Positions 4,080 to 39,564 of a stretch of DNA of 64,000 nt are shown here, piece after piece; the first letter of the stretch is position 1; each line of letters starts with the position of its first letter. The notes below the pieces were generated by a model. That model ran no database searches, was not told the DNA's origin, and saw only the letters and a list, made by a program, of their open reading frames with translations. Source of the stretch: Tetraselmis striata. Taxonomy: Eukaryota; Chlorophyta; Chlorodendrophyceae; Chlorodendrales; Chlorodendraceae. Location: positions 247,547 through 311,546 of the forward strand of contig VCJN01000858.1 in NCBI GenBank assembly GCA_006384855.1, read 5' to 3'. The position numbers and the translations under genes are program-made.

Positions 4080-5860
4080 ACCCCAGCAGTACTACGAGAT
4101 ACCGATATTATTAATAAATAAATTATCTATCGCTGCGCATCGCTTGCTTTAATGTTTCTAAAACAAAAAACCTAACGATTATTCACACTCGTCAATATCT
4201 ATTAAAAGATTAGCATTTAAAATAAAGCATTTTAGGCAACAGCTGGTATGTACATGTATGCACAGGGGCTGATGATGTTCATATCTGTACTTGCACTACA
4301 TTCTCATATACCTACGGGTACACCGCGTCCTACTTTCTCCACCCGATTTTCACGAGCGAAATTAATACTCCAAATCTGTCGCAGAAAAGGTTGCGGGCTA
4401 TTGAAGGGGCGGGGGGGGGGGGGGGGGGGATTTTCGGACTCTGCGCTGCAAAACACCACAAAGCCCGGTCACCCTGTGCCTTTACTGCAGGGATGCTGTA
4501 TTTCCTGATGAGCAAAAAGCTCAAAAGTCTGGCCGCGACTCTGATGCAGGGGAAAAAGACCTCAACTTGGCTCATTGTGTACCAGTACTTTATTTCAAGT
4601 CGCGAAAAGCGCGTGCTCGGTGCAGATGCAAGACGAGACAGCCAAAAAGAGTGTGAGTACCGGTACGCCGTGCTAATCTTGCTGTGACGACCAAGTGACG
4701 GGCCGGTGCTGGCGGCCAGATGCGTGCTACCTGTAGCGACTACTCCTTGTTTTATAACCGTCAGAATCCTTGTGGGAGCTGGATGGAGCCGGATAATAAT
4801 CCGTCGCAATCTTACTGGTACTGGTACTGTACTTGTACTGCACAGGAACAGGTACGGCATGACCTTTTTTTTTTAAATAGTACCGGTAGGGGCAACTTTG
4901 AGACCGGGTGAGATATTTATGAAGATAGTTTTCCCGTCTGCAGTCATTGTATCGTCTGAGAAGATACTTTGAATCCGGCGGGCATATCCTCACGGGCCCA
5001 AGGCGCCAGTAGTATAGCACATCAGATAAGTCCACACAGCACGCGCGGTGTTCGCCTGCACATCGACTAACAGTACTCCCGGCAGAGCTGTACCGTACTG
5101 ATGGCGTAGTCTGGCGGTCGCCCAACCGGCAACCGCCGGCAATAGTCCCTGGCCAGGGCGGGGTCGGCACCCGGCTGGGGCGGGATGTTGCTGCTGGGAT
5201 TTCAAAGCTGAGTATGGTTTTGCCAAAACGGTCGTCGCGCAGTAGGCTCTTATTATTTTTAAACAAATGATGGTTTCGGTTTATATTATGTTTATATTGG
5301 TATAAACATATACCTCTCCACATAAGTATGCGGCTTGCGAATTCGATCCACATGCCCATGCGCGGCTAGACTGAGACTGTGCGCGTGCATGCATGTTACT
5401 CAGGGTCGTACGGCTTTGGGGGGAAGGGGGGGGGGGGGGGGGGGGCGGGGGGGGGAGGGAGGGTGTTAACGCGATATATAGCTACATACACCTAATATAT
5501 TGCCACGCGGTAGCTGTTGCCGTCAACACGTTCATTTAGGCAACAGAAGCATGGCTTATGGCGCTAGCGCTCCAAACCACAAATTGTGCCACTCGTGTAC
5601 ATAAATAGGCATGGCGGGACGCGACTGCCCCCGTACTCATACCACATCACCCTTGGTATGATAACCATCCGCCATAAACGTAGGGCATTGAAATTAGCTA
5701 GCTAGGTCATTCACGACATGGACCAAGCCCTACGTGTCGATGATGATGGTTTATGGGCAAAATGATGGACAAAATGCGGTTGTGATCGCTGCACGATATC
5801 GGCGTGTATATTCATTTAGCTAACGATAATCAATGCACATGCGCAGGCCACCATTGCCCT
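4080..5860. other. Gene-free AT-rich stretch with long G runs
   Basis: No supported gene. The stretch contains G homopolymers at 4411-4429 and about 5426-5455, short TA-rich blocks, and GTACTG-type simple repeats near 4815-4840. Open frames overlap on both strands and carry no motif. Confidence 0.5.
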
Positions 5861-14902: not shown

Positions 14903-15090
14903 ATGATCTAAACTAGTTTATGGGGTTTCCCTCCTTGACCTAACCGCTTTTTAGCTACAAGTGCTGCTCAGTGGTGCGGGAACTAGGCATCTGTTGTTGC
15001 GCCCTTTTTGGGTGCAGCACGAGTAGACATAAAAGCAGCCAGAACAGCTGAGCCTGCCATCTTCCATTTTTCGCTGCGTTCCACGCAGCG
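14903..15090 (+). repeat. Split direct repeat A1 of tyrosine-recombinase element
   Basis: Identical in length (188 bp) and nearly identical in sequence to 17828-18015, with about three substitutions. It starts ATGATCTAAACTAG and ends with a perfect hairpin, CGCTGCG-TTCCA-CGCAGCG (15072-15090). It precedes the gag-like ORF and probably carries the promoter. Confidence 0.85.
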
Positions 15091-15203
15091 ATGTAAAAAC
15101 TGTCTCGTAACCAGTTGCGAGCAAGGTCACCCCAGGTTGTTCAAGACCACACCCGGCTCACCACCCGAGTGTGATATTCTCGTCCGTACGTCCGTGCGTT
15201 ACC

Positions 15204-16088
15204 ATGCCAGATGGAGAAGAACCCGTCGCCGAGCCTACGTTGGAGTCGCTGAACGCAGATATGAGGGCCCAGTCTTCATTACTGCGAGAGTTAGCTACAG
15301 CTGTGGCACAATTAACGGCTCGTGATCGCGTTGTTGATGGGGAAGGGGCACATGGCTCCGGCTCCGGGCAGCGCTTCGCGGGACAGCCGACAGGCATCGG
15401 GGGAGCCGCAGAGCGCCCCGACTTGCTAGAGCTAGCCCAGAGCGGCCGTGTCGGAGCAAAATCCGTGAGTGCCGAGGACGACTACCTCGCGGTGCCAGAG
15501 CTACTGCAGAGAGTAGAGTATGGTTACGATCGAGGCCGTTCGACCGGTCAGCCGAGTGCCTATCCTAGACTCTTCCCCCTGAGCACCGACCTAACGAACG
15601 AGTACCTCAAGCAGGACGACCGGCGTCTGCCGGCCCAGGAGGAGTATTTGTGGATGTCGTGTTTCGGGGCCCACATGGCCGCACTTTTCGTGGCTCTCGA
15701 CAAGCTGCTACCTTACGTCCCTGCCGCTAACCGGGACTTCACCCCCTACCTCGCGAGAGCTCGGAATCACGCCGAGGCCATCGACAAGGCGTTTCGTTTT
15801 CGTCTGGCTTTCCTGCGGAAGCTAAATGAGATCAAGCGTGTGCACGGTGACCAAGGTGTTCTGGACGTGCTGCGAGCCCAGCAATTTCAGCCTGCTTCGG
15901 AGCATCTGGCTTCCGCGATTTTTGGGGACCTCGTGAAGGACTACGAGCGTCGCGTCTTCGAGGCGACCGTTGCCAGCAGCGCAAAGGCAACCGCTACTGC
16001 CCGAGTAGCAGCTGCAGCTGCAGGTCGCGGGCGTGGGCGAGGACGTGGTGGCGGGCGTGGACGTGGCCGCGAAGGTGAGCACGAGTGA
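15204..16088 (+). CDS. Gag-like ORF of the tyrosine-recombinase element
   Basis: A 294-residue open frame starting at the ATG in ACCATGCCAG, 114 bp after repeat A1. The N-terminal third is Glu/Ala-rich. The middle is helical, with the blocks YPRLFPLSTDLTNEYLK and FGAHMAALFVALDKLLPYV. The C-terminus is an Ala stretch followed by GRGRGRGRGGGRGRG, an RGG-like nucleic-acid-binding tail. Position and composition fit the gag-like ORF1 of DIRS/Ngaro elements; no conserved zinc knuckle is seen. It is in the same frame as the recombinase frame that follows, separated by TGA stops at 16086 and 16110. It could instead be a DNA-binding accessory protein of a Crypton-like element. Confidence 0.6.
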   Translation: MPDGEEPVAEPTLESLNADMRAQSSLLRELATAVAQLTARDRVVDGEGAHGSGSGQRFAGQPTGIGGAAERPDLLELAQSGRVGAKSVSAEDDYLAVPELLQRVEYGYDRGRSTGQPSAYPRLFPLSTDLTNEYLKQDDRRLPAQEEYLWMSCFGAHMAALFVALDKLLPYVPAANRDFTPYLARARNHAEAIDKAFRFRLAFLRKLNEIKRVHGDQGVLDVLRAQQFQPASEHLASAIFGDLVKDYERRVFEATVASSAKATATARVAAAAAGRGRGRGRGGGRGRGREGEHE

Positions 16089-16124
16089 CGGTGTAGGGCG
16101 CCTTTCGCCTGAGCTGCTGGAGCT

Positions 16125-17749
16125 TTGCGAGGCCACCTTTCGGTGACCGCCGCAAGACGCACCCTTGCAGCACAACGGCGAGATGAGCGCCCTGTGTCAG
16201 GATCTGACCCCCCCACCTTGCAGACTTCATTTAGACCTTCCTCGGTGCGGCGCTTCTTACGGCTACATCCGAGTGCGGCTCAACCATCCGCACACATGCA
16301 CATGGCGGTCCAACCAACCGTCTCCCGTACCATTCCATCGCTGCGTCCATCGGTTGTTACCCTGCGTGTCACAACTGGTTCGCAACGACCAAGTTTCGCG
16401 CGTGTACGTTATGCACGGGACAGGCGCTACGAGCGCGAAGGGCGCGCGGGGCGGCCCTCTTACCTGAACCTAGCCCCGCAAACCCGTACTGAAGCTACTG
16501 CAAAGCCGTCCAGCAGCTACCGGCCAACCGCCGGAAACCTAATCGCTGCTGCCGAGTACTTTGCAAACAGTAGTCGTACTGGTGGAACTCTGTCGGTAAA
16601 ACGACGCACGTACGTAATTGACGAGCCCGCAGCTGTCGCTCCGTGGGCTGCGTCATTGCGATCCCGGCTGCAGGATGCGTTCGGCTCGGACGAGCTGGGC
16701 CAGCGGACGCTCGACCTGCTCTCAAGCTCCCTCAGCGCTCAAACACTCAAGAGCTACGCCGGCAGACTGTCTCAGTTCGCGGAGTTCTGCCACGACTCTG
16801 AGAACATCAGTCCGCTGGAGGCGACTACTGCTACTGTCGTTCGGTATGTTGCTTGGATCGGGGAGCGAGGGCACATCGCAGCTAAGTCGCTGCAACCCTA
16901 CCTGTCCGCAATTAACACGTTCTTCGAGCTGCGCAACCTTGTCCCCATCGCCAAGGACAGTCTACACCTAACTTCAGCAAGGCGTGGGCTGATGCTGCGT
17001 CAGCGCTGGCTGGACGCGGCCCCTTTGCGTGTCCTTCTGCCTGCGGATGTAGCCTACCGCTTCGTCACAAAGGCCGAGCTAATTGTGTCTGCTCCTTACC
17101 CAGAGTACCACCCCGACTTCCGAGCCCTCTTGGCCTCGGTTGTCAACTTCATGTTCTTCGCCATGGGCCTTATTGGCGTCTCCTGTCGAGTGCGAGATGT
17201 GCATGTCGACACCTACAACATCACCTTACAAGTGTACCGCGAGAAGGGTCGCGCTGGCCGACGGGGACCCGACGACCTGCGCGTACTTCTCCTTCCGGTG
17301 TCCGAGCACCCTCGAGTGGCACGTCTCTTGCACCACTTCATCGACAACGTCCAATCTGTCCCCCTGGTTACTGTTGGCCAGGCTACATCAAACTTCTGGG
17401 CTGTCACTGCGGCCGAGCAGTCAAAACCTTGGACTGCGGCTACAATGTCAGACTGGCTGTCTGCAGCCATCAGTCTAGTCAACGCTGCTCCCCCTGTTGG
17501 CACTTCCTGGACTTCACACATTCTTCGCAAGGGCGCAGCTTCTGCAGCAAACGCCATCGGAGTGCCATTGTCCCACATTCGCTACCAAGGCGGTTCGCCA
17601 CTAACTCTGACGTCGTTCTGGACTACATCGACCCCAACGTTCTTCCTTCACATGGCGCATGGTTCTTCTTTGGACACATCGCCCCCCTCCGCCACTTCCA
17701 AGTCCAACAGGACTCCGCAGCGGTGGCCTTCCTAGTGCCTCCTTCATGA
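16125..17749 (+). pseudogene. Tyrosine recombinase, frameshifted before the catalytic Tyr
   Basis: A long frame without a strong upstream ATG (first in-frame ATG at 16296) encodes a phage-integrase-type core. It has a SAM-like N-terminal domain (AQTLKSYAGRLSQFAEFC, YLSAINTFFEL), then VYREKGRAGRRG (beta-hairpin Lys region) and the HxxR box SHILRKGAASAAN near 17518-17555. The nucleophile region, NSDVVLDYIDPNVLP, lies in the next frame (Tyr codon 17624-17626), so a single base change near 17590-17600 splits the catalytic domain. With that exception the gene looks intact and young. There is no reverse transcriptase between the gag-like frame and this one. Confidence 0.75.
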
Positions 17750-17801
17750 CTTGGCGCTACCTCTTCTCCGTCAATCCACCGCTCTCTCCGTTCGCTCAAG
17801 A

Positions 17802-17829
17802 CTGGCAAAACCAGACTCAACTTTGAAAT
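17802..17829 (+). repeat. Split direct repeat B1
   Basis: CTGGCAAAACCAGACTCAACTTTGAAAT abuts repeat A2 and recurs at 18111-18138 with two differences. The resulting order A1-ORFs-B1-A2-B2 is the split-direct-repeat layout of Ngaro-type elements. Confidence 0.7.
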
Positions 17830-18015
17830 GATCTAAACTAGTTTATGGGGTTTCCCTCCTTGACCTAACCGCTTTTTAGCTACAAGTGTTGCTCAGTGGT
17901 ACGGGAACTAGGCATCTGTTGTTGCGCCCTTTTTGGGTGCAGCACGAGTAGACATAAAAGCAGCCAGAACAGCTGAGCCTGCCATCTTCCAATTTTCGCT
18001 GCGTTCCACGCAGCG
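17828..18015 (+). repeat. Split direct repeat A2
   Basis: Second copy of the 188-bp repeat at 14903-15090, ending in the same CGCTGCG/CGCAGCG hairpin (17997-18015). It lies immediately after B1 and is followed by about 95 bp of unique sequence before B2. Confidence 0.85.
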
Positions 18016-18110
18016 CCCCCCCTGACTCCGTTTTCCCTCCACGCTTTCGCTAAACCATACATCCTGCCAATTTCGGCTCTTGACCGTGTAAAACAGCCTG
18101 CGCGACCTTT

Positions 18111-18138
18111 TTGGCAAGACCAGACTCAACTTTGAAAT
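18111..18138 (+). repeat. Split direct repeat B2 (element right end)
   Basis: TTGGCAAGACCAGACTCAACTTTGAAAT repeats B1 (17802-17829). It is the last recognisable part of the tyrosine-recombinase element; a G homopolymer follows at 18164-18183. Confidence 0.65.
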
Positions 18139-18477
18139 TGCTGATCTGGTAGTGCTGCTTTGGGGGGGGGGGGGGGGGGGGGGCGGTAATACTGCTAAAT
18201 TTAGCGGTGGGTGGGTACTGGCCTTTTTGTAATGCACACCAGTAGTCAGCGGCAAGCTTTTACGCGGCCTGTAGATTTAATCTGATTTACAAATTAATAC
18301 GTCGTCTCGTAAAAAATAGATGTGACAAATCTAACGCTAAAAGCAGTATATTACCCGGGAAAACACGGTATTACAAGATCAACACTACAAGCCGGCTAAA
18401 AGCGGCCCGCATCCCGCACCAGGCTCAATCCAAGAGGTAGGGGCACCTCCACAAATCCCCGGCGCGAAGCGCCGCTT

Positions 18478-18900: not shown

Positions 18901-19269
18901 TACATAATAATGCTACCAACATGAACATATAGTCGCTACTATGACTCAGCAGCAGCTTGCCTATATACGAATATGTTACATGGCACATATACGCGTAAAT
19001 AATGTGCTAAGTAAATAAACACAATATGACCGATAGCCGATGTAATAGACAGATTATCGCATGTACAAAAACTCGGATAGACCGTGATCATTGCAGCGGA
19101 AAAATCTTAAGGATAAGTGAATTGTAGTTGTGGTCGCTATTTAGGTTAGTCGCTAGTCATCGACTCCTTGTCTAGGTGATTGCCGAGGCATGCAAGTGAA
19201 GTCATCACGATGACTTAAGCGGTGGAGGCGGGCGGGCAAGCGTTGGCCGGGCGGGCTTGGTTTTTGCCA

Positions 19270-19387
<118 letters not shown>

Positions 19388-20639: not shown

Positions 20640-21060
20640 CGACGTCGAAAAGCGGTTCAACCCACGTCGATTCGCCTCGCTCATTGCTAATAAGTGGGGC
20701 GTTTGCACCCATCGACCGCTTCGCGTTGTCCGAAAACGCCCTCCTACCCCGCTACAACTACGCCCGTTGACGCGATGACCCGCGGTGCGAGGCCGTCGAC
20801 GCCCTGCGCCTCGCTCCTCGACGACGTTGCATGGCGTTGCGAACATAACTGGTGTAGCCCCCCCCCCCCCCCCCCCCCCCAGGAACCTCCTCGGCAATCT
20901 TGTCTCTAAACTGAAGTCCTGCGGTGCCCCAGCCATCGCCATTATTCCCTACTGGCATGACAAAGCTTGGTACCCGCTATTCTCGGAGATGTGCTGCGAC
21001 ATGCGCTACTCCTGGAAGCCGCGATCTCTTCATTCCTGGCCGTAATGGCCACCACCTTAC
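20640..21060 (+). pseudogene. 3' remnant of a DIRS/Ngaro-type pol
   Basis: Pieces in different frames match the C-terminal part of the pol remnant at 21666-24021: CTHRPLRVV in one frame corresponds to a HTIDRFA block, then LLGNLVSKLKSCGAPAIAIIPYW and DKAWYPLFSEM. A C homopolymer (20860-20880) interrupts it. It is followed by the direct repeat at 21066-21368, just as the larger copy is followed by 24069-24401. Confidence 0.6.
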
Positions 21061-21065
21061 ACCAT

Positions 21066-21368
21066 TAGTTGGGGTTTCCTTTCCGCATGGCGATCGCTTC
21101 GCGCGTTTTCCATCGTATATGCGTTACAAATGTCACGCATGCGATGCTCATGGCTATACATCGTACTCAACACACGGTAGTCCGCGTATGCTTCAACACC
21201 CGAAATATGCATGAGAAGAAACTGCCGTACAAACGAGCACGGTCAACTCCGGCACCACGCTGCGAGTCGACCCCACTCAAGGTATAATTCTTATAAAAAC
21301 TAGCGGGCTGTATGTTGTCCCCATCTCCCATCTTTGCGCCCCGCCCACCATGTGGCGGGCCGCGTTGG
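21066..21368 (+). repeat. Direct repeat flanking DIRS-type pol, left copy
   Basis: About 280-300 bp, starting TAGTTGGGGTTTC and reaching ACCATGTGGCGGGCCGCG. It repeats at 24069-24401, where a 33-bp insertion (24341-24373) lies near the end. Shared internal blocks include CACGCATGCGATGCTC, GAGCACGGTCAACTCC, and CCATCTCCCATCTTTGCGCC. Confidence 0.75.
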
Positions 21369-21665: not shown

Positions 21666-24021
21666 TTGGCGCCGACTGCTCGACGCCTAGGCCTAGCTGA
21701 CCGATTCAAACGCTTACCGCCTTGGCAACGAATCCGTATCCAGCCAGTGGGCGACCCGAGTACTATGACCGAGCGAGATGCTCCCTTAGGTCGCTTACTC
21801 CTGCCTCGATGCGCTTTGAGCACGCGGCCTAGGGCGGCAGATGTCGTTGTCGAGCGAGGACGGGCCCTTACGCGCCACGCGCGGAGCCATGCGGACTCCG
21901 GCTCGCGTGCCGACCCGTGCACCCCTAAGTCGGATTACATGCGGCACCGGGTGCAACGCAATTATTGGCATGCATGGGCGGACATCGGCGCCGGCCGCTG
22001 GGTCGTCGACGTGACCCGCAACGGCGTGCGCATCCCGTTCAAGAGCGGGCCGCCCGCCCCTTTTCACCAAGGGGCCTCGATGGAGGACGCGATGACTCTT
22101 AGCCAACTACGCTTCATGGACATCGAGCTGGCTCGCTTTCTGGCTAGTGGAGCGTGGGAGGAACGCCACTGCTCGCGGTGGGTTTCTCGGTTGTTCCTCG
22201 TACCTAAGCCGGGCGTCAATAAATGGCGGCTTATCATCGGGTACTGCGACCCTTGAACCGGTACTGCGAGGTAGGAGCGAGACCTGAGTTTCGAGACCCT
22301 CACGCGTCTGCGTCACCTGGCTCGGCCGGGCGACTATATGCTCTCCATGGACCTGCGGAACAGCTTCTACGCCGTCAGCACTACTCCCTAAGACCGAGAG
22401 TATTTTACCGTCATCAACTACCGAGGCAAGCTCCATCTATCGGTTTGGTGGGGCTCCCCATGAGTGGAGCCTGAGCCTCTACTACTTTTGCTCGCTCGCT
22501 GCGGCGTTCAATGACCGCCATCTTCGACGCCACGACTTCGCAGTGACCACCCAAGGAGTGCGTCGTGCCAAGCTCAGCATGGGGCGACGGTGACAAGCGC
22601 TGCGCAGCCACTTCCGTGGCCGCCGCATGCTCCCCTACATGGACGATTTATTGTTCTTTGCGTCCATCCGGGCGCAAGCCTACGCTGTGCGCAACTACCT
22701 CACCTCTCAGCTCGGACGGCTGGGTCTCAGCCGACACCCCGACTAGGGTCAATGGGAGCCGGTACAACGGTTGGAGCAGCACCTCGGTTTGAAGATCGAC
22801 TCACGGAGCGGTACGATTCGAGCCCCTCCCCCCCCCCCCCCCCTCTCGAAAACTATATTCACTCGATGCTACAGCACTAGGGCTCATCCGCCGGGCTAAG
22901 CGAGATAGGCGATGACTGCATGTGCGAGAGCTCGCGTCCCTCGCATGACGTGCCCCGTTCCCATATCTCGCCATCAAGCCCGCGTGGTTCTACCTGCGCG
23001 AGCTGCACGACGTGCTCCGCACAAAGAACTCGTGGAGCGGGCGCGTCAAGATGACGCACCAACTCCGACGCAACCTCGAATGGTGGGTGGCGGTCCCCAA
23101 CCACAGCAACGGCCGCTCCATCTACAAACCCGCCGTGGAGACGGCCTACGTACATGCATGTCGACAGCTCCAGCTACGAGTGAGGCGCCGTCCTCAACGG
23201 GACCACCAAGGCGCGCGGCTTATATATGGTACGACTGCGACCGCGAGCTGCACATGTCTGCAATAAGGAGCTCAAGGTTGTCCGGTGCGCCGTGCTTACA
23301 TTCCTCACGGAGCTGCGAAGTTGACAGATGCTGCTCCACGAGGACAACATGGGGGTGGTCCACGTCCTCGCCAACCTCATCTCCCGCTCGTCCCCTCCGC
23401 TCATGACGGAGCTGCGATAATTGTGGTTTATCCTTGACTCCAACGACATATATATCCATCCGTGCGCGCTACATCAAAACCACGGCGAACATTTGGGCCG
23501 ACCGCCTCAGCCGCGAAATTGACTATGACTACTGGGCGTTCAGCCTACGCCACTGCACCAACCTCGACACCATCCGGGGGCGTCACACCATCGACCGCTT
23601 CGCTACCATGGAGAATGCGAGGCTCCCGCGCTACAATTCCCGCTGGCGTGACTCTTGCAGCGAGGCTACCGACAACACGCGCCTCTCCGATGGCGCATGA
23701 TGTCGTGAGCACAACTGATGCAACCTCCCCTGGGGCCTCATTGATAACCTCGTCATCAAACTCCACACATCCGGCGCGGCGGCCGCCGCCATCGTGCCCT
23801 ACTGGCCCGACCGCGGCTGGCACTAGCGCCTCTCGGAAATGGCATCCGAGGTGCTTGCCTTCCCGCCCTCCCCGGACCTCTTCGCGCTGGGCCGCCTCGG
23901 CATCCGCACTGGCGTCGGTTCTCCCAAGTGGCCAGTGGTCGCCTTCCGGCTCTTCTCCCTTCGGGCCCGGTGCGCGCCCGTCAAGCCGGCCGGCGCCCTC
24001 AAGCTCGTGCCCCAAGACTAA
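21666..24021 (+). pseudogene. DIRS/Ngaro-type RT-RNase H polyprotein, decayed
   Basis: Reverse transcriptase begins near 22090 with LRFMDIELARFLASGAWEE and WVSRLFLVPKPGVNKWRLII. After stops and frame changes come LRHLARPGDYMLSMDL and, at 22627-22660, LPYMDDLLFFAS, the catalytic YMDD box. The connection and RNase H follow: FYLRELHDVL (about 22985), RVKMTHQLRRNLEWW, NGRSIYKPAVETAYVH, then TANIWADRLSREID (about 23475). The C-terminal block includes RHTIDRFATMENARLPRYN. The order and wording match the RT-RH module of DIRS-like elements. At least six stops or frameshifts make it non-functional. No recombinase is recognised in this element. Confidence 0.75.
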
Positions 24022-24068
24022 GCTCGGCAAACCACACAGCCCCCTCCCGTTGAAATGTTTACTACCAA

Positions 24069-24401
24069 TAGTTGGGGTTTCGTTTTCGCATGGCGACCGC
24101 TGCGCGCGTTCGCCTACGTACGCCGCGTAAGTTACAAATGCGGCACGCATGCGATGCTCGCAGCTATACAAGCACGGTAGTCCGCATATGCTTTTACACC
24201 CGAAATCTGCTTGAGAAGAAAATGCCGTACAAGCGAGCACGGTCAACTCCAGCACCACGCTGCGAATCGACCGCAATCGAAGTAGAACTCTTATAATAAC
24301 TAGCGGGCTATCTCATGTCCCCATCTCCCATCTTTGCGCCATGTTCCATCTTCCCATCTTCCATCTTCACGCCATGCCTACCATGTGGCGGGCCGCGTCC
24401 C
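24069..24401 (+). repeat. Direct repeat flanking DIRS-type pol, right copy
   Basis: Partner of 21066-21368; see that entry. A 34-base C homopolymer (24404-24437) starts right after it. Confidence 0.75.
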
Positions 24402-24554: not shown

Positions 24555-25110
24555 TTGTGAAATGGTACGTACTGGTGCACCCCGGGGATCGCGGCGACCG
24601 AGGCGGAGCACAACAAGCTGGCGGCGGACCGGGCGTCTTCCGCCTCAAGACTGGTATTCACCGGTACTACGCTTTTGTGGTTGAGGACCGCGGCCGCCTC
24701 CGAAAAGCTGCTTTGACAGTGGTCTACATCTTCGCAGTGTTACTTGCTGCTGCGCGCAACTTCCTTGGCGGTCCTTCCTCCCCGACCTCATGCTTCTTTC
24801 GTGGTTAGTCCGTCCATGCCCGTTGGAACTTTGTCGCCAACCAGCCCGTTGAGTTCCACCACCACCTGTCGCGCACGCTGCGGGGGTTGTTGCGGCGAGT
24901 CTCCGCCTCCGGGCGTGCATGGTACCTTGGGCGGTATTCTTTGCCGGAGTGCAGACGGCCAAGTATTATGCGTCTGCCCGAGCTCATTCCGCACCCTCTT
25001 TTGGTGCTGCTTCCACCGCGCAGTTGTTGTAATGGAAGTTTCCTAATGCCTTTTTGGGTGATTTCCTTATCGCATTTTGCAGCTAGCTCATGTACCTGTA
25101 ACTGTACATA
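24555..25110 (+). pseudogene. Family R1 repeat, copy 3, with 3' tail
   Basis: The plus strand codes FVVEDRGRLRKAALTVVYIF and, after a stop and frame change, HHHLSRTLRGLLRRVSA, matching the minus frames of 430-720 and 3770-4056. This copy is longer and runs into ATTTTGCAGCTAGCTCATGT (about 25073-25095), which also ends the insertion at 12917-14105. That suggests one non-LTR family with a shared 3' end. Confidence 0.5.
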
Positions 25111-25215
25111 CTGGTTTGATTTACAAAAAGGCGGTAACAAATCCACATACTGCTAAAAGTAGTACTAAAAGATCAACACAACAATCCGCCTAGGCGCGGC
25201 CCGCATCCCGCATGA
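25100..25215. repeat. Dispersed ~110-bp repeat
   Basis: TTTACAAAAAGGCGGTAACAAATCCACATACTGCTAAAAG-type sequence ending near GCGGCCCGCATCCCGCAT. Related versions are at 18285-18420 and 27030-27140, and the last block also appears reversed at 14868-14900. It has no coding potential. Confidence 0.5.
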
Positions 25216-26606: not shown

Positions 26607-28250
26607 TCATGCAGCCGGTAAAGGCCTCGAGATCATATATTTACAAACATGGGCAGTCACGAGGGCGGCATGCATGCCGTTCCACCAACCCGTGAGCCGC
26701 GGAGCTCACTTCCATACTAGCTCCAAATTATGCGATCTCACATAGCTAGGAACGGTCCAGCCCATGTAGCTCATCCCTCCCTCCTCGGGGAACTCACTAC
26801 AGGCACCCTCTGAGGTGATGAGGGACTATATCTTGAGCACGGCGGTGCCCCGCCACACCGGCTCCCGTGTAGTCTCTGAACCTTCCTATCCGTACACATA
26901 TTTATATATATTGCGTGTCATACCCAGGCACGGCTCTACACGGCTTGGCTGCGTGTGGCCCGATCCTGGAGTGGGGTGGCGCTGGTAAAACTGTACATAC
27001 CGGTAACAGGTAGTCGCTACTGGTGTGAGTTACAAAAAGGCCAGTCACAAATCCACCTACCGGTAAAAGCAGTACTATAAATTGAAAGATGTAATAATTA
27101 AAAGCAATAAATTGAAAGGTCAACTTGAGGCGGCCCTGCCCTGGTACAGGGTACTGCTGGTACAGTTCACCGCCTCCGATTTATCTGGGTATAGCAACCG
27201 CGCCTAAATAAACTGAACATTTAATCGCAGTGGCGTAGTCGCTAATGGATCTCGGGACGTACGTGGCCACTGCTACCTGCGCGTTTTCCAGTTGGATAAA
27301 GACGGAAAAAATACTAAAGTACTACTGTGTGGCACTTTAAAGCGCAGCATTATCCCCGTGCAGGTGCAGATACAACTCAAAAGGTGCCGGCAACCTTTCT
27401 CCTACCCCACTTTCGGTGCCGCCACCCAACACATCCTACACAGCAGCCGTACTCCACCCTGCACCCCATCCACCGAACATAAGCAAACGTCCACTGCAGT
27501 GCGGCCTATCACCATCCACTAGTGACAAGTAACCGGTGCGTGTGACCCTTTATGCTTCTCCTAGCATGAGCGAACTGGTGGCGGTGGCGGTGGCAGTCGT
27601 GCCGTCTCCGTCGAGATACTCTGGAACTCGCGTATTTTCCACCTTTCGTCCTGCCTGTTGCCAAGGGTTGAAAGCTGTCCCTTCCTATCTCCACTTGTAT
27701 TTACGACACCCTAATCCCCCCGCCCCATTGATGCCATGTCATCTGTCTCCTGGCTAGCCTTAGGCCCCCCTTCGCTCAAATCCAGAGCAAGTGGTTTGCT
27801 ACCTCGGGTTGGCGTTTCTGAACGAAAGTTCGATCAACAGTTAGCCCCCCCCGCCCCCCCCCCCCCCCCCCCCCCCCCGGGCCCCCACGCCGCGTACACC
27901 ATACTGCACCGTGTCCGCAGGGAATATCAACCGTGGAATTTGCCGCTGCCGCACATGTTTTCTATGCTGTGTGTGTGTGTGTGTGCTGCTTGTGTTACAT
28001 TCAGTTCTCCGAGGTGGTTTTTAAAACACGTATGTAGCGACATTGCTTCACGTAGCAATTCCGCAGCACGCGGCCCGAGCGGTCAAGGGCCGTCAAGATC
28101 GCTCCGTATTTGTCGGCAGCAGTCTTCAACAGCTATCTCTCCCCCCTCTCCTCCTATATGAGATACCAGAAGTAGCAGATACCGCAATATCCTTAGCTAT
28201 GTAGGCACTCTTTGGCACATCGTCAAGCTAACGCGCCGTGTGCGTGCCAC
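26607..28250. other. No supported gene; upstream region of the AP2 gene
   Basis: Holds a dispersed-repeat relative at 27030-27140, a C homopolymer at 27854-27878, and a short GT run at 27970-27983. The promoter and 5' UTR of the AP2 gene presumably lie in the last few hundred bases. CACTGCAG at 28251-28258 could be the acceptor of a 5' UTR intron. Confidence 0.4.
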
Positions 28251-28309: not shown

Positions 28310-30089
28310 ATGGGACCCACATCGCACACCCCAGCGGTGGGGAGCAAAAGATCCAGCCCCTCCGACGATGACATCGAGACTCTCGACCAGCAGGCGGGCC
28401 GCAGCGACGACAATGAGGCTCACAGCGAAGATAGCTCTTTTGAGCCCCTGGAAGGGGAAAGGACCGGCGACGCCAAGAAAGAGGGAAAGCCAAAACCGGA
28501 ATCGGAAAGTCCTGCCGACAAGTCCGAGGCAAGCGAGCGGGCTGTTCGCCGCCGCACGTCCAGGTACTGGCGTGCGCTATGCCTGAACATTTCCTAATTT
28601 TAGATGTGGCGGTTGGGGCAAGAGATTAACACGCGCTATTCCGTACCATCGTCAGGTTTTGCGGCGTGTGCTCAGCGAACCGCAAGAATCAGTGGCAAGC
28701 TCGGATTCTGATGAAGGGCAAGGTCACTCATCTCGGTTACTTCGACACCGAAGAGCAGGCAGCGCGTGTCTATGACGTGGTTTCACTTAGCCTGCACAAG
28801 GACAAGGCCAACACCAACTTCCCGCTGTCGGACTACACGAGCGGTGCGGAGGCAGAGCGGGTGACGAAGTTAGGTGGCCTTTCACGCGAAGACCTGCAAA
28901 AAGCCCTGGGTGTCAAGCCTATCCGCAAGACCAGCCGCTTCAATGGTGTGAGCAAGAAGAGGGGCAAGTGGGTTGCAAAGGTCATGATTGACAAGAAGCT
29001 TGTGTATCATGGTGAGCTTTCTTTCCCTTTGGCGAATGCGTGACCGCTGCATCGCTGTGTCACGGAACCTTTAGTTACTTGTTGCCACGCTGCATGAGGA
29101 AGATCATGGTAGCTGACATCTCATTTTATTTTGCTATGACAGCCAGCTTCCACGACGAGCGCGAAGCTGCTCTTGCGTACGATGCAGCTGTGCGGAGGCT
29201 GAAGCCCAGCAAGGCCCACGCCTACGTAAACTTTGTGGAGCCGGCGCCCGGGGACATTGCCAACATCAACCGTATGGCCATGGGTAACGGCACTGTCAGC
29301 GCCGCCCAGATGCCGTTTCAGCCCCAGCAGATGATGACTGGACTGCCTCACCAGCAGATGATGGGCGGTCCTCAGCACCTCGGACTCATGGGAATTCCAC
29401 CGATGACACATGGAGCAGGAGCCCCCGTGCAGGCCCCCAACAGCATGCACCTTCAGTGGCCCGTGATGGGGCACATGCCGTACCACAGTCCTCTGGAGCC
29501 CCACTTGAATGGAATGCACGATCAAGGGATGATGGCCCCCCTTGGCATGCCTGTCAGCCAGGCACGGTCCGTGCCTTCGGGCTCGGCAGTGTACTCTGCC
29601 GGCCCTGATATGTTTGACATGGACGTCGGGGCGCCGTCTGTTGAGAACTTGGGGCAGAGAGGCAAGGCAATGCAAGGCGAGGGTGTCTGGCCTGTAGCGG
29701 ACCCGTCCATGGAATGGTGGAGGAACCATCACCCGGGTATGACTGGCTACCCTGCTGGCAGCATGCCTCCTCCGCACATGACTGCCGCTCCGACCAGACC
29801 CCACCACTTGCCTCAGCTGGCTCCCGGACAACACCCCATGTGGTCCATTCCCATGGCCCAGCACACCCCCATCGACGCGTTCTCGCGCCGCGAGAACCTT
29901 CGCTCCCATGTGCAAGGCCTGGTCCCACAGCCCAACGGCATGATGGAGTCCATGTACAACGAGAGGCAATCGTCTAGCGCCTCGACATGGTCTGCGCAGT
30001 TCCCCATGCCGAACATGGGCGGCTTGGCCCAGGGCGATGCGGACAGCAGCTTTGCATCCCGGAGAACGGCCATCCCTGCTTGGGCGTAG
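28310..30089 (+). CDS. Double-AP2-domain transcription factor
   Basis: Three exons, 28310-28563, 28656-29011 and 29143-30089, with GT-AG introns of 92 and 131 bp whose phases match exactly, give 518 residues. The start ATG lies in GGCCATGGGA, a good context. Residues 1-84 are acidic and Ser/Lys-rich. AP2 domain 1 (about 85-145) has RFCGV, WQARI, GYFDTEEQAARVYD. AP2 domain 2 (about 178-234) has SRFNGVSKKRGKWVAKV and DEREAALAYDAAV; intron 2 splits it. The rest is rich in Met, Pro, His and Gln (for example PFQPQQMMTGLPHQQMMGG), a likely activation or low-complexity region. AP2 domains bind DNA, so a nuclear regulator is expected; targets are unknown. It converges on the SEC-C ORF. Confidence 0.88.
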
Positions 30090-38000: not shown

Positions 38001-39564
38001 GGGCGGCCGCCTTGCCCCACGTCCCCTCCGCCATTTTCCGCCGACGCCGCATCTCTGTCATGGTGCGGGTGTAGGCGTCGCCACCCCCCGCGCCGCCGCG
38101 GCCATCGCCCCCGCCCGCGCCGGTTTCCGTCCCGAATGCCCGGAGACCGACGGGCTTGGAGCCGTACAGCTCCCCCGTCTGCGGTCGCAGACTTCCCGTC
38201 AAGCTCTGCATCTCCCGCTGGCCGGGCGGCGCCAGGCTGAGCACTCCCCGTCACGCGGCATCGCACGGGCTTGGAGTCAAATTCAGCCACCCGCAGCTGT
38301 GAGGCACAGCAGCAGCGCGCGTCAAACCTCGTGCCGAGCCGCTGGCGGCACTGCTAGGTAGCAAACGCCCCAGATTGGACTTCAAATATCGGCAGCCCAG
38401 TGGCGCGCTCAGCCATTCAGCGGCCGAGACGCTGGGCGCAACGACTGCCCCATGCAACCGCGGGAGTAGGGCAACTCACCTCGAGCTCCATCACCGCCGT
38501 GGCCAGCTCTGACGGCTGGTACTGTACCGTGACAGTTGATACGCCGTTGGCGGGCACCACCCCTCGCGTATCGGACACATGGAACTGGCGGTTGTCTTGC
38601 CGGACGATGACCTCGTACTCAAAGTCGATCGGCACCTTGCAGCTGATGTGCACCTCCTTCACGTGCAGCTCGCCCACTTGGCACTTCCCAAAGTCGATCG
38701 CCGCGGGGAACTTGATGTCGTTCATGACGGGGTACGCGTGGATCGGTACCAGCAGATTTTCCTCCTCTGAGTGGATGCGGATGCAGTCATAGTAGTAGCG
38801 GTGCTCTGTGGGGCAAAACTCTATCGTGATGTCCTCTGAGAGGCCTGGTGCAATGAATCCACGCCGCGTAACCGCCGCTATCTGCGTTGCCATGGTCGGC
38901 ACATCCGGGTGAGATGACAGAAAAGGGTTTCTCCATTGCATACTGCCAATGATTGCGGGGAAAGGGGGGAAGGGGGAGAGGGGGCCGGCGTTGTGCTCAA
39001 TCACGAACACTGTTTGTGGGCGGCGACTCGCCTTGAAGAAGGGCGTCGTGGGTGGTATGATGTGGCACCGCGAGCTGTACCCGGCAACGTTGCAGACACG
39101 GATGGTCTGACGGTGAACTTTGTGCAGCTCGAACCCCCCATAGTGCACGACGGACGGGATGGGCTCCAGGACCCCATTGCTGCCAACCTTGCTGAAAACG
39201 CCTGCAACATGATGGCCAGCGCACAGGCAACCAGCCATACAGTCAGGCAGTGGCACGCATGGCTTGGATGTACCGGCGGAGCAAGTCAAGGCATTGCTGG
39301 TTACTCACGATTCTTTGTGATGTAGTTGTTGTTCTCCAGCGGCAAGTCTTCCACAATGCCCTGCGAGCAACCGGCTGAATTGTCAGCCGACAGCATCAAC
39401 CCCGAGTGAGATGCTCAACTGTCACCTGGCCGCGCACCCTCAGCGAGGATGCATGGCATGATCCATACCTCCATAGCGCTGGGTAGCTTGGATGGCGACT
39501 TGCTCTCATTGATCTCATAGTGCGGGGACGCCGGGCCTGATGGCCCTTCAGTGGCTGGGGGCAT
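35060..39564 (-). CDS. CFAP221: CFAP221 (FAP221/PCDP1) central-apparatus protein
   Basis: Exons, in gene order: 39564-39469, 39360-39309, 39201-39032, 38881-38480, 38296-37846, about 37738-37696, about 37389-37219, about 37140-36813, 36703-36461, 36324-35911, 35811-35722, 35560-35413, 35334-35060. Exons 6-8 are approximate. The product is near 960 residues. Family landmarks are VVHYGGFELHKVHRQ, YYYDCIRIHS, LVPIHAYPVMNDIKFP, GVVPANGVSTVTVQYQP (two ASH/PapD-like domains), then VLNQQPGKLRIQDIQ, NPYANDTWLKRAQ, NQLFNLQKVCPAPLPVY and VPLKYKLLGYEEEEW. Vertebrate CFAP221 binds calmodulin in the central-pair apparatus of motile cilia. Two introns use GC donors (after 39032 and after 35722). Exon 5 is one base too long (451 nt), putting a frame slip at the C run 38246-38249. 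Confidence 0.9.
37797..37824. repeat. G homopolymer in CFAP221 intron 5
   Basis: In the minus-strand transcript this is a 28-base C run ending about 60 nt (or about 30 nt, if the alternative acceptor at 37769 is used) before the next exon. It may act as the polypyrimidine tract. Confidence 0.9.

Follow-up and report, generated by a model that had tools for sequence, protein, structure and literature searches.

Retroelements that integrate by means of a tyrosine recombinase (YR) are described as single units in the parts of the literature cited here, to which all statements on published elements are limited (PMC4157794, PMC6681497). Toc3- and PAT-like elements of algae combine split direct repeats, in the order A1-open reading frames (ORFs)-B1-A2-B2, with gag, reverse transcriptase/RNase H (RT/RH) and a YR gene on the sense strand (PMC4157794). 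In the Ngaro element of Cafeteria burkhardae, a gag-like ORF1, RT/RH and YR make up a single unit about 6 kb long (PMC8547959). The element analyzed here, at positions 14903-18138 of a 64,000-nucleotide stretch of Tetraselmis striata DNA (the window), encodes a gag-like protein and a YR, and no RT; it is referred to as a GY (gag plus YR) segment. A second family in the same genome, the RT segment, encodes RT/RH only. We consider it likely that the window element represents one of the two segments of a bipartite, PAT-like retrotransposon of the tyrosine-recombinase kind.

The repeat layout of PAT-like and Toc3-like elements recurs in the GY segment, in the RT segment and in a third family, the one-piece relative, which also matches their gene set and sense-strand YR. 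Whereas all genes of the described elements lie in one unit, gag and YR are here separated from RT on two units; gag, RT/RH and YR were found together in the one-piece relative only. The Toc3-like subgroup is characterized by a gag without zinc finger and a YR that runs in the direction of RT; a Pfam scan of the gag-like ORF of the window gave no family, zinc-finger families included. Ngaro elements share the repeat order of GY, but form a single unit with RT and have no methyltransferase-like domain, whereas the RT segment shows a weak Dam-like match (PF05869; E 0.0072, 16.5 bits against a cut-off of 28.1). PAT-like elements have a methyltransferase-like domain behind RNase H. Together with the split direct repeats this weak match would point to PAT/Toc3-like elements (PMC4157794), and it makes the Ngaro assignment of an earlier, sequence-only description of the window (the first-pass annotation) doubtful.

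Incomplete elements have been described in plants. Athila families of Arabidopsis that lack pol persist with gag or gag and env ORFs under purifying selection; the authors argue for supply in trans from pol-containing families and suggest possible cooperation (PMC2410132). This is the nearest idea to the present pair in the sources cited, but Athila are long terminal repeat elements without a shared recombinase site, and no reciprocal pol-only family appears in the part of that paper used here. BARE2 of barley is a defective element packaged with the proteins of a relative; this is one-way parasitism, BARE2 lacking only Gag and BARE1 being complete, unlike a reciprocal pair (PMC3735527). No description of gag plus YR and RT on separate elements was found in the open-licence PMC literature, in the parts consulted and with preprints outside the scope (further sources compared: PMC3266345, PMC8226300, PMC12477816). 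The machinery of the two segments is of a known kind and their gene organization is new as far as seen. An obligately bipartite retrotransposon would be the first with a segmented genome known to us; the others that we know of either are complete or live as one-way parasites on elements that are. Cryptons, which also integrate by a YR, are not known to carry gag or split repeats or to be accompanied by an RT partner; GY has split repeats and a gag-like gene, and its site recurs in an RT element. Multipartite and segmented viruses distribute essential genes over separately copied segments with shared terminal cis signals. The genes of the GY and RT segments are divided likewise, these segments being chromosomal mobile elements instead.

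Gene content of the two segments

The window GY element is built as A1 (188 bp)-gag-like ORF-YR ORF-B1 (28 bp)-A2 (188 bp)-95 bp-B2 (Table 1). The first-pass annotation had reported the 188-bp direct repeats, the 28-bp pair, their order and a coding space holding a gag-like frame with an RGG-like tail and a YR 36 bp apart, without RT, and all of this was confirmed, with the 95 bp between A2 and B2 added. The A repeats are 98% identical and the B pair 96% over 27 nt, the dinucleotide AT being common to B1 and A2 (2-nt overlap). The YR ORF matched PF02899, the YR N-terminal domain (E 5.5e-8), and no RT was found between the two ORFs. The YR of this copy is broken: a frame shift, missing from all 20 other loci compared, has moved the C-terminal part with the catalytic Tyr into another frame (to about 17749), and the residue which we take to be the first catalytic Arg is replaced. 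With ratios of nonsynonymous to synonymous substitution (dN/dS) of 0.62 for YR and 0.85 for gag against locus L021, the copy is decaying; the recent movement proposed earlier holds for the family. Rfam at the gathering threshold gave nothing over the whole window.

The genome (224 Mb, 2,903 contigs) contains hundreds of GY copies of about 3.2 kb. The best 40 of 1,363 first-look candidates for the 188-bp repeat scored 98-100%, and the window repeats are therefore no chance similarity. A 22-nt stretch of the gag 3' end has 956 exact genome copies. Twenty loci were fetched as the best A-repeat matches, a choice biased to close copies; gag, YR, B, A, spacer and B follow in order in all of them, and none contained RT-like sequence (search at E 1e-4). 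A1 is missing from the stretch of L012, and a second GY copy is present in L025 and in L027. Three of the copies (L013, L020 and L023) have near-identical flanks, 98-100% over 141-150 bp on each side, and represent a duplicated locus or repeated target rather than three independent insertions.

Two lists of exact pattern matches in contig order, one of gag 3' ends and one of type I B/A junctions (see below), provided a less biased test. The first 100 of 932 junctions were paired with 94 of 100 listed gag ends (contigs up to C317). A same-strand gag end within 8 kb upstream was present for 47 junctions, at a spacing of 1,739-1,807 bp in 46 cases and of 1,030 bp in one, so that none of the 47 pairs has room for RT. 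An exact gag end nearby was lacking for all 11 RT-type junctions and likewise for 42 GY-type or mixed ones, the latter being uninformative. No RT remnant or deletion scar was found in GY, the YR N-terminal region included. The genome search proposed in the first-pass annotation thus returned many copies with fixed ends and without an RT-sized insert at the gag-recombinase junction. Origin of the window element by a one-off deletion was rejected, given hundreds of copies and 0/47 pairs fitting RT. Of the two outcomes foreseen, a deletion derivative with autonomous, same-ended relatives is too simple a description of GY, its RT relative being RT-only; by the criterion proposed there GY is a separate class (20/20 copies and 47/47 pairs without an RT-sized insert), but probably not a recombinase-only one in the Crypton sense. 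Two other ideas were discarded. Matches to a '536-aa' YR carry different indels in the four read, so that a single YR lineage with a common frameshift, propagated in trans, was rejected; the three hybrid junctions among the 100 listed are old GY copies (L036, L037 and L057, the last read over 1.4 kb only) and not a third segment. Arrays of GY alone, recognized by gag, occur on C2200 and C1388 with a spacing of 2,917-2,918 bp.

A 'DIRS-type pol' at 21666-24021 had been named as a possible source of RT. RT coding sequence is indeed present there, within an old, decayed RT segment with its own repeats (21061-21340 and 24064-24340). A search with the start of this pol showed the same 763-aa open frame in many of the best 150 of 1,781 candidates. 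In seven loci, chosen for long frames, RT/RH was present in all and gag or YR in none. Five are complete, with the order A1-RT ORF-B1-A2-spacer-B2 and an A1 of about 180 bp that is 97-100% identical to A2; L029 is a tandem RT pair, and thus a same-segment array, and L031 is without 3' repeats. A further complete RT element lies in L017, 136 bp after a GY element. The segment is about 3.05 kb long and its ORF matched RVT_1 (2.8e-16) and RT_RNaseH (9.3e-6). Alignments of RT or YR against viral contigs, and of RT against genome contigs, found no relatives, these collections being non-eukaryotic and little informative. GY and the RT segment look reciprocal, because the RT relative is RT-only and shares the recombination site. 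The supply of RT by relatives, suggested in the first-pass annotation, is probable and would include the family of this pol.

The coding sets of both segments are under constraint. With L021 as reference (YR from residue 151 on), dN/dS in four diverged copies (L011, L014, L025 and L028) was 0.09-0.24 for YR and 0.12-0.17 for gag; in old copies it was 0.16-0.23 for YR (L036, L037, L057) and 0.25-0.35 for gag (L036, L037). The full ranges were 0.09-0.62 for YR (23 pairs) and 0.07-0.85 for gag (22 pairs), both maxima belonging to the window copy, and 0.07-0.71 for RT (28 pairs), many within-family pairs being imprecise owing to low dS. For RT, 24 pairs fell within 0.07-0.47 and the four above it all involve L017. 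Between the type I copies and the older type II copies treated below, dN/dS was 0.28-0.29 for YR (2 loci) and 0.31-0.34 for RT (3 loci), with dS above 1.

The B/A junction and insertion of the segments

The junction of B and A reads GGCAAAACCAGACTCAACTTTGAAATGATCTAAACTAGTTTATGGGGTTTCC in GY and GGCAAACCAGACGATCCTTGTGAAATGTTCTAAACTAGTTTATGTGGTTTCT in the RT segment. BLAST over the whole segments aligned 51 bp at the junction with 84% identity (E 7e-10); besides it, matches were found in its 30-bp repeats, over 25 nt (E 0.002) and over 30 nt (E 0.36). The shared ~50 bp across the junction are presumed to be the recombination site. The exact type I two-way pattern occurs in 932 places (reversed control 0). 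By spelling the first 100 comprise 86 GY, 11 RT and 3 mixed junctions, and if these proportions hold there are about 800 GY and 100 RT junctions. A predicted stem-loop, of unrelated sequence in the two segments, closes their A repeats; the A repeat of the one-piece relative ends inside a predicted stem-loop.

The old RT element of the window carries a changed version, the type II junction GAAATGTTTACTACCAATAGTTGGGGTTTC, which was found in 126 places at up to three mismatches (control 0). Reading covered 14 of the 18 one-mismatch places, a sample that leans away from RT; the others are C2005 and C2808, for which RT matches or RT repeats were known, and C1843 and C2396. The 14 loci comprise eight RT elements (L040 and L041 being near duplicates), two that are GY-derived and four with degenerate internal repeat bodies. 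The GY-derived loci, L042 and L048, retain parts of a YR with about 60% identity to that of type I; they arose from a GY segment by deletion. As the site has changed and both kinds carry the changed version, both are read as served by one recombinase. The four remaining loci (L038, L039, L049 and L051) have 1.2 kb of degenerate internal repeats without genes upstream of the site (self-BLAST), are related to L042/L048 or to each other, and are likely parasites of the pair. One old RT segment contains on its opposite strand a degenerate YR (L045:373-945, +), 31% identical to the GY recombinase, which belongs to another YR family of the genome.

Both segments insert within a 2-bp core. The end positions agree in 20 GY and 6 RT elements (the array in L027 left out); the left boundary reads N|TGATC or N|TGTTC (TGTTT in L035), and the right end shows three A's and then T or C. 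The GY set amounts to 18 independent insertions, L013, L020 and L023 being taken as a single one on account of their common flanks. The empty site of the GY insertion in L011 was found as CCCCAGA-AT-TAGAA in L015, L031 and L030, and that of the RT element in L017 as GGCGAT-AT-CAGG in L014 and L026, with a less identical match in L031. In both the core is AT and, as in YR retroelements, there is no longer target duplication. Empty-site matches for L036 and the window copy were too diverged to be firm. A short dispersed repeat recurs at insertion flanks of both segments (Table 1) and may be a favoured target.

An array of both segments was found on C2695, where an RT ORF-B1-A2-spacer-B2 is fused exactly to a GY A1-gag. 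The pattern of RT B followed by GY A, searched at up to two mismatches, occurs in this one place (C2695:3153, 1 mismatch; control 0). The probability of such an exact mixed junction by chance is below 0.001 in a rough estimate that assumes uniform insertion.

Mechanism and alternative explanations

From these data we infer an RNA intermediate, a promoter in A1, supply of proteins in trans, co-packaging and mutual dependence. Both segments would be transcribed from A1, and the gag-like protein would gather both RNAs together with RT. RT would then copy each RNA, the internal B1-A2 copy restoring the ends to give a circle with a B/A junction. On either circle the GY-encoded recombinase would recognize the same ~50-bp junction, and it would insert both circles at a 2-bp target. 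With a little less confidence than for the two-segment organization itself, we favour an obligately bipartite element, neither segment moving alone and a shared, co-changing site keeping the two together through at least two element generations.

Several points weigh against a bipartite element. The pair is known here from genome sequence alone, and type I ends may also belong to some rare full-length element, as 0/47 leaves up to about 6%. No intact type II GY was found, the type II partner being represented by deletion derivatives only, and the RT identities (type I and one-piece 61%, type I and II 45-58%) do not place types I and II together, so that they do not demonstrate a single splitting event. 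There is only one case of a mixed junction, and a search for the reverse order (GY then RT) found none. End positions were extrapolated from alignments to reference repeats, with those of L012, L026, L029 and L031 not captured; a window match to the RT target (25049-25094, 87%) is without the extra 2 bp, and the matches in L015 and L019 for this target are ambiguous. Some dN/dS values are high for each gene (the maxima given above). The gag assignment follows from position and the RGG tail: similarity to the one-piece gag is weak, and a single-sequence fold model was useless (mean pLDDT 41.6, all helix). Finally, the one-piece relative could in principle supply RT.

The one-piece relative, read in L022 and L052, has the structure A1 (177 bp)-gag-RT-YR-B1 (30 bp)-A2-91 bp-B2 over 4.9 kb; YR and RT lie on one strand. 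With its YR as query, roughly 100 close relatives were among the matches listed, many with a 1,096-aa RT-YR frame. Its junction, present in 408 places at up to one mismatch (control 0), keeps the B motif with a different A side. Its RT and YR are 61% and 40% identical to those of the type I segments, and BLAST against GY aligned only 63 bp of YR apart from matches at E > 0.1. GY as a non-autonomous deletion derivative of this family was rejected, since the ends are not shared and the A side of the junction differs. The element may show what an undivided ancestor looked like. Closely spaced one-piece junctions (C54:95909/97467, C158:107045/107343, C1278:57491/58715) suggest short derivatives or solo repeats of this family.

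It is improbable, though a real contender, that the two segments derive, as non-autonomous elements, from a single full-length type I master that is rare, unassembled or extinct, GY having lost RT and the RT element gag and YR, with neither protein set needed. Complementary losses arise easily by deletion, the one-piece family shows that full-length elements of such a kind occur in this genome, and its junction is also present at places without a nearby YR match among the matches listed. However, the one-piece element does not have the ends expected of such a master, none of the 47 gag/junction pairs fits RT, no RT remnant was found in GY and gene content is uniform in 20 GY and 7 RT loci. Passengers should decay, whereas both coding sets are constrained, and the older generation again shares the site.

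Somewhat less probable still is service of GY by the one-piece RT, with the RT segment an independent parasite of the GY recombinase and no mutual dependence. The many long RT-YR frames among the matches listed and the RT identity to type I speak for such a supply, but the A side of the junction differs, the YRs are distant (40%) and constraint would not be expected in an RT that has no benefit from its own product. That GY is a Crypton-like DNA transposon without reverse transcription, its split repeats incidental, is very improbable: the encoded YR and the 2-bp core insertion without longer target duplication would fit, but its layout is the one with a proposed reverse-transcription model in YR retroelements (PMC6681497), an RT element has the same site and the gag-like gene is constrained.

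If the bipartite reading is true, segmented genomes can evolve among mobile elements within a chromosome, and questions posed for multipartite viruses become testable here: how the copy ratio (86 GY to 11 RT among the first 100 junctions) is kept up, how selection acts on trans-acting proteins, and what keeps full-length competitors from replacing the pair. The one-piece relative, a co-resident of the same genome, is relevant to this last question. Annotation may class such segments as defective debris.

Features and other observations in the window

Table 1 Features of the GY element, the old RT segment and the dispersed repeat in the window
Feature	Position	Strand	Remark
A1, left split direct repeat of GY	14903..15090	+	predicted stem-loop 15072-15090 at end
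gag-like ORF	15171..16088	+	305 aa from GTG, in-frame ATG 15204, RGG-rich tail
YR ORF	16125..17735	+	frame shifted near 17595-17598
B1, left arm of presumed B/A recombination site	17802..17829	+	
AT, B1/A2 overlap, presumed crossover core	17828..17829	+	
A2, internal A copy	17828..18015	+	first ~27 nt common to RT segment
Spacer A2-B2, 95 bp	18016..18110	+	about 91 bp in most other copies read
B2, right element end	18112..18138	+	
A-type repeat, left copy, old (type II) RT segment	21061..21340	+	3' end of another RT unit precedes
Decayed RT/RNase H coding region, old RT segment	21645..23991	+	several frame breaks
B1/A2 of old RT segment	24026..24340	+	type II junction pattern 24052-24081
Dispersed repeat TACTGGT..TTACAAAAAGGC	18189-18242, 25108-25192, 27020-27079		flanks of L011, L015, L018, L030, L034, L036

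A solitary B-like sequence lies on the minus strand at 5199-5225 (92.6% over 27 nt), and no adjoining A repeat of the GY family was found there. A poly-G tract (18162-18183) lies just right of the GY element, followed by a long TA dinucleotide repeat (19268-19387), and poly-C tracts occur near 20858, 24403 and 27853. An AP2-like stretch was recognized by eye in 29040-30089. The minus strand at 38417-39286 encodes a ciliary FAP221/FAP360-like protein, with a phmmer E-value of 2.4e-57 to a solved chain, which together with the AP2-like stretch makes a flagellate green alga the likely host; the FAP360 and FAP221 structure chains are presumably those of Chlamydomonas.

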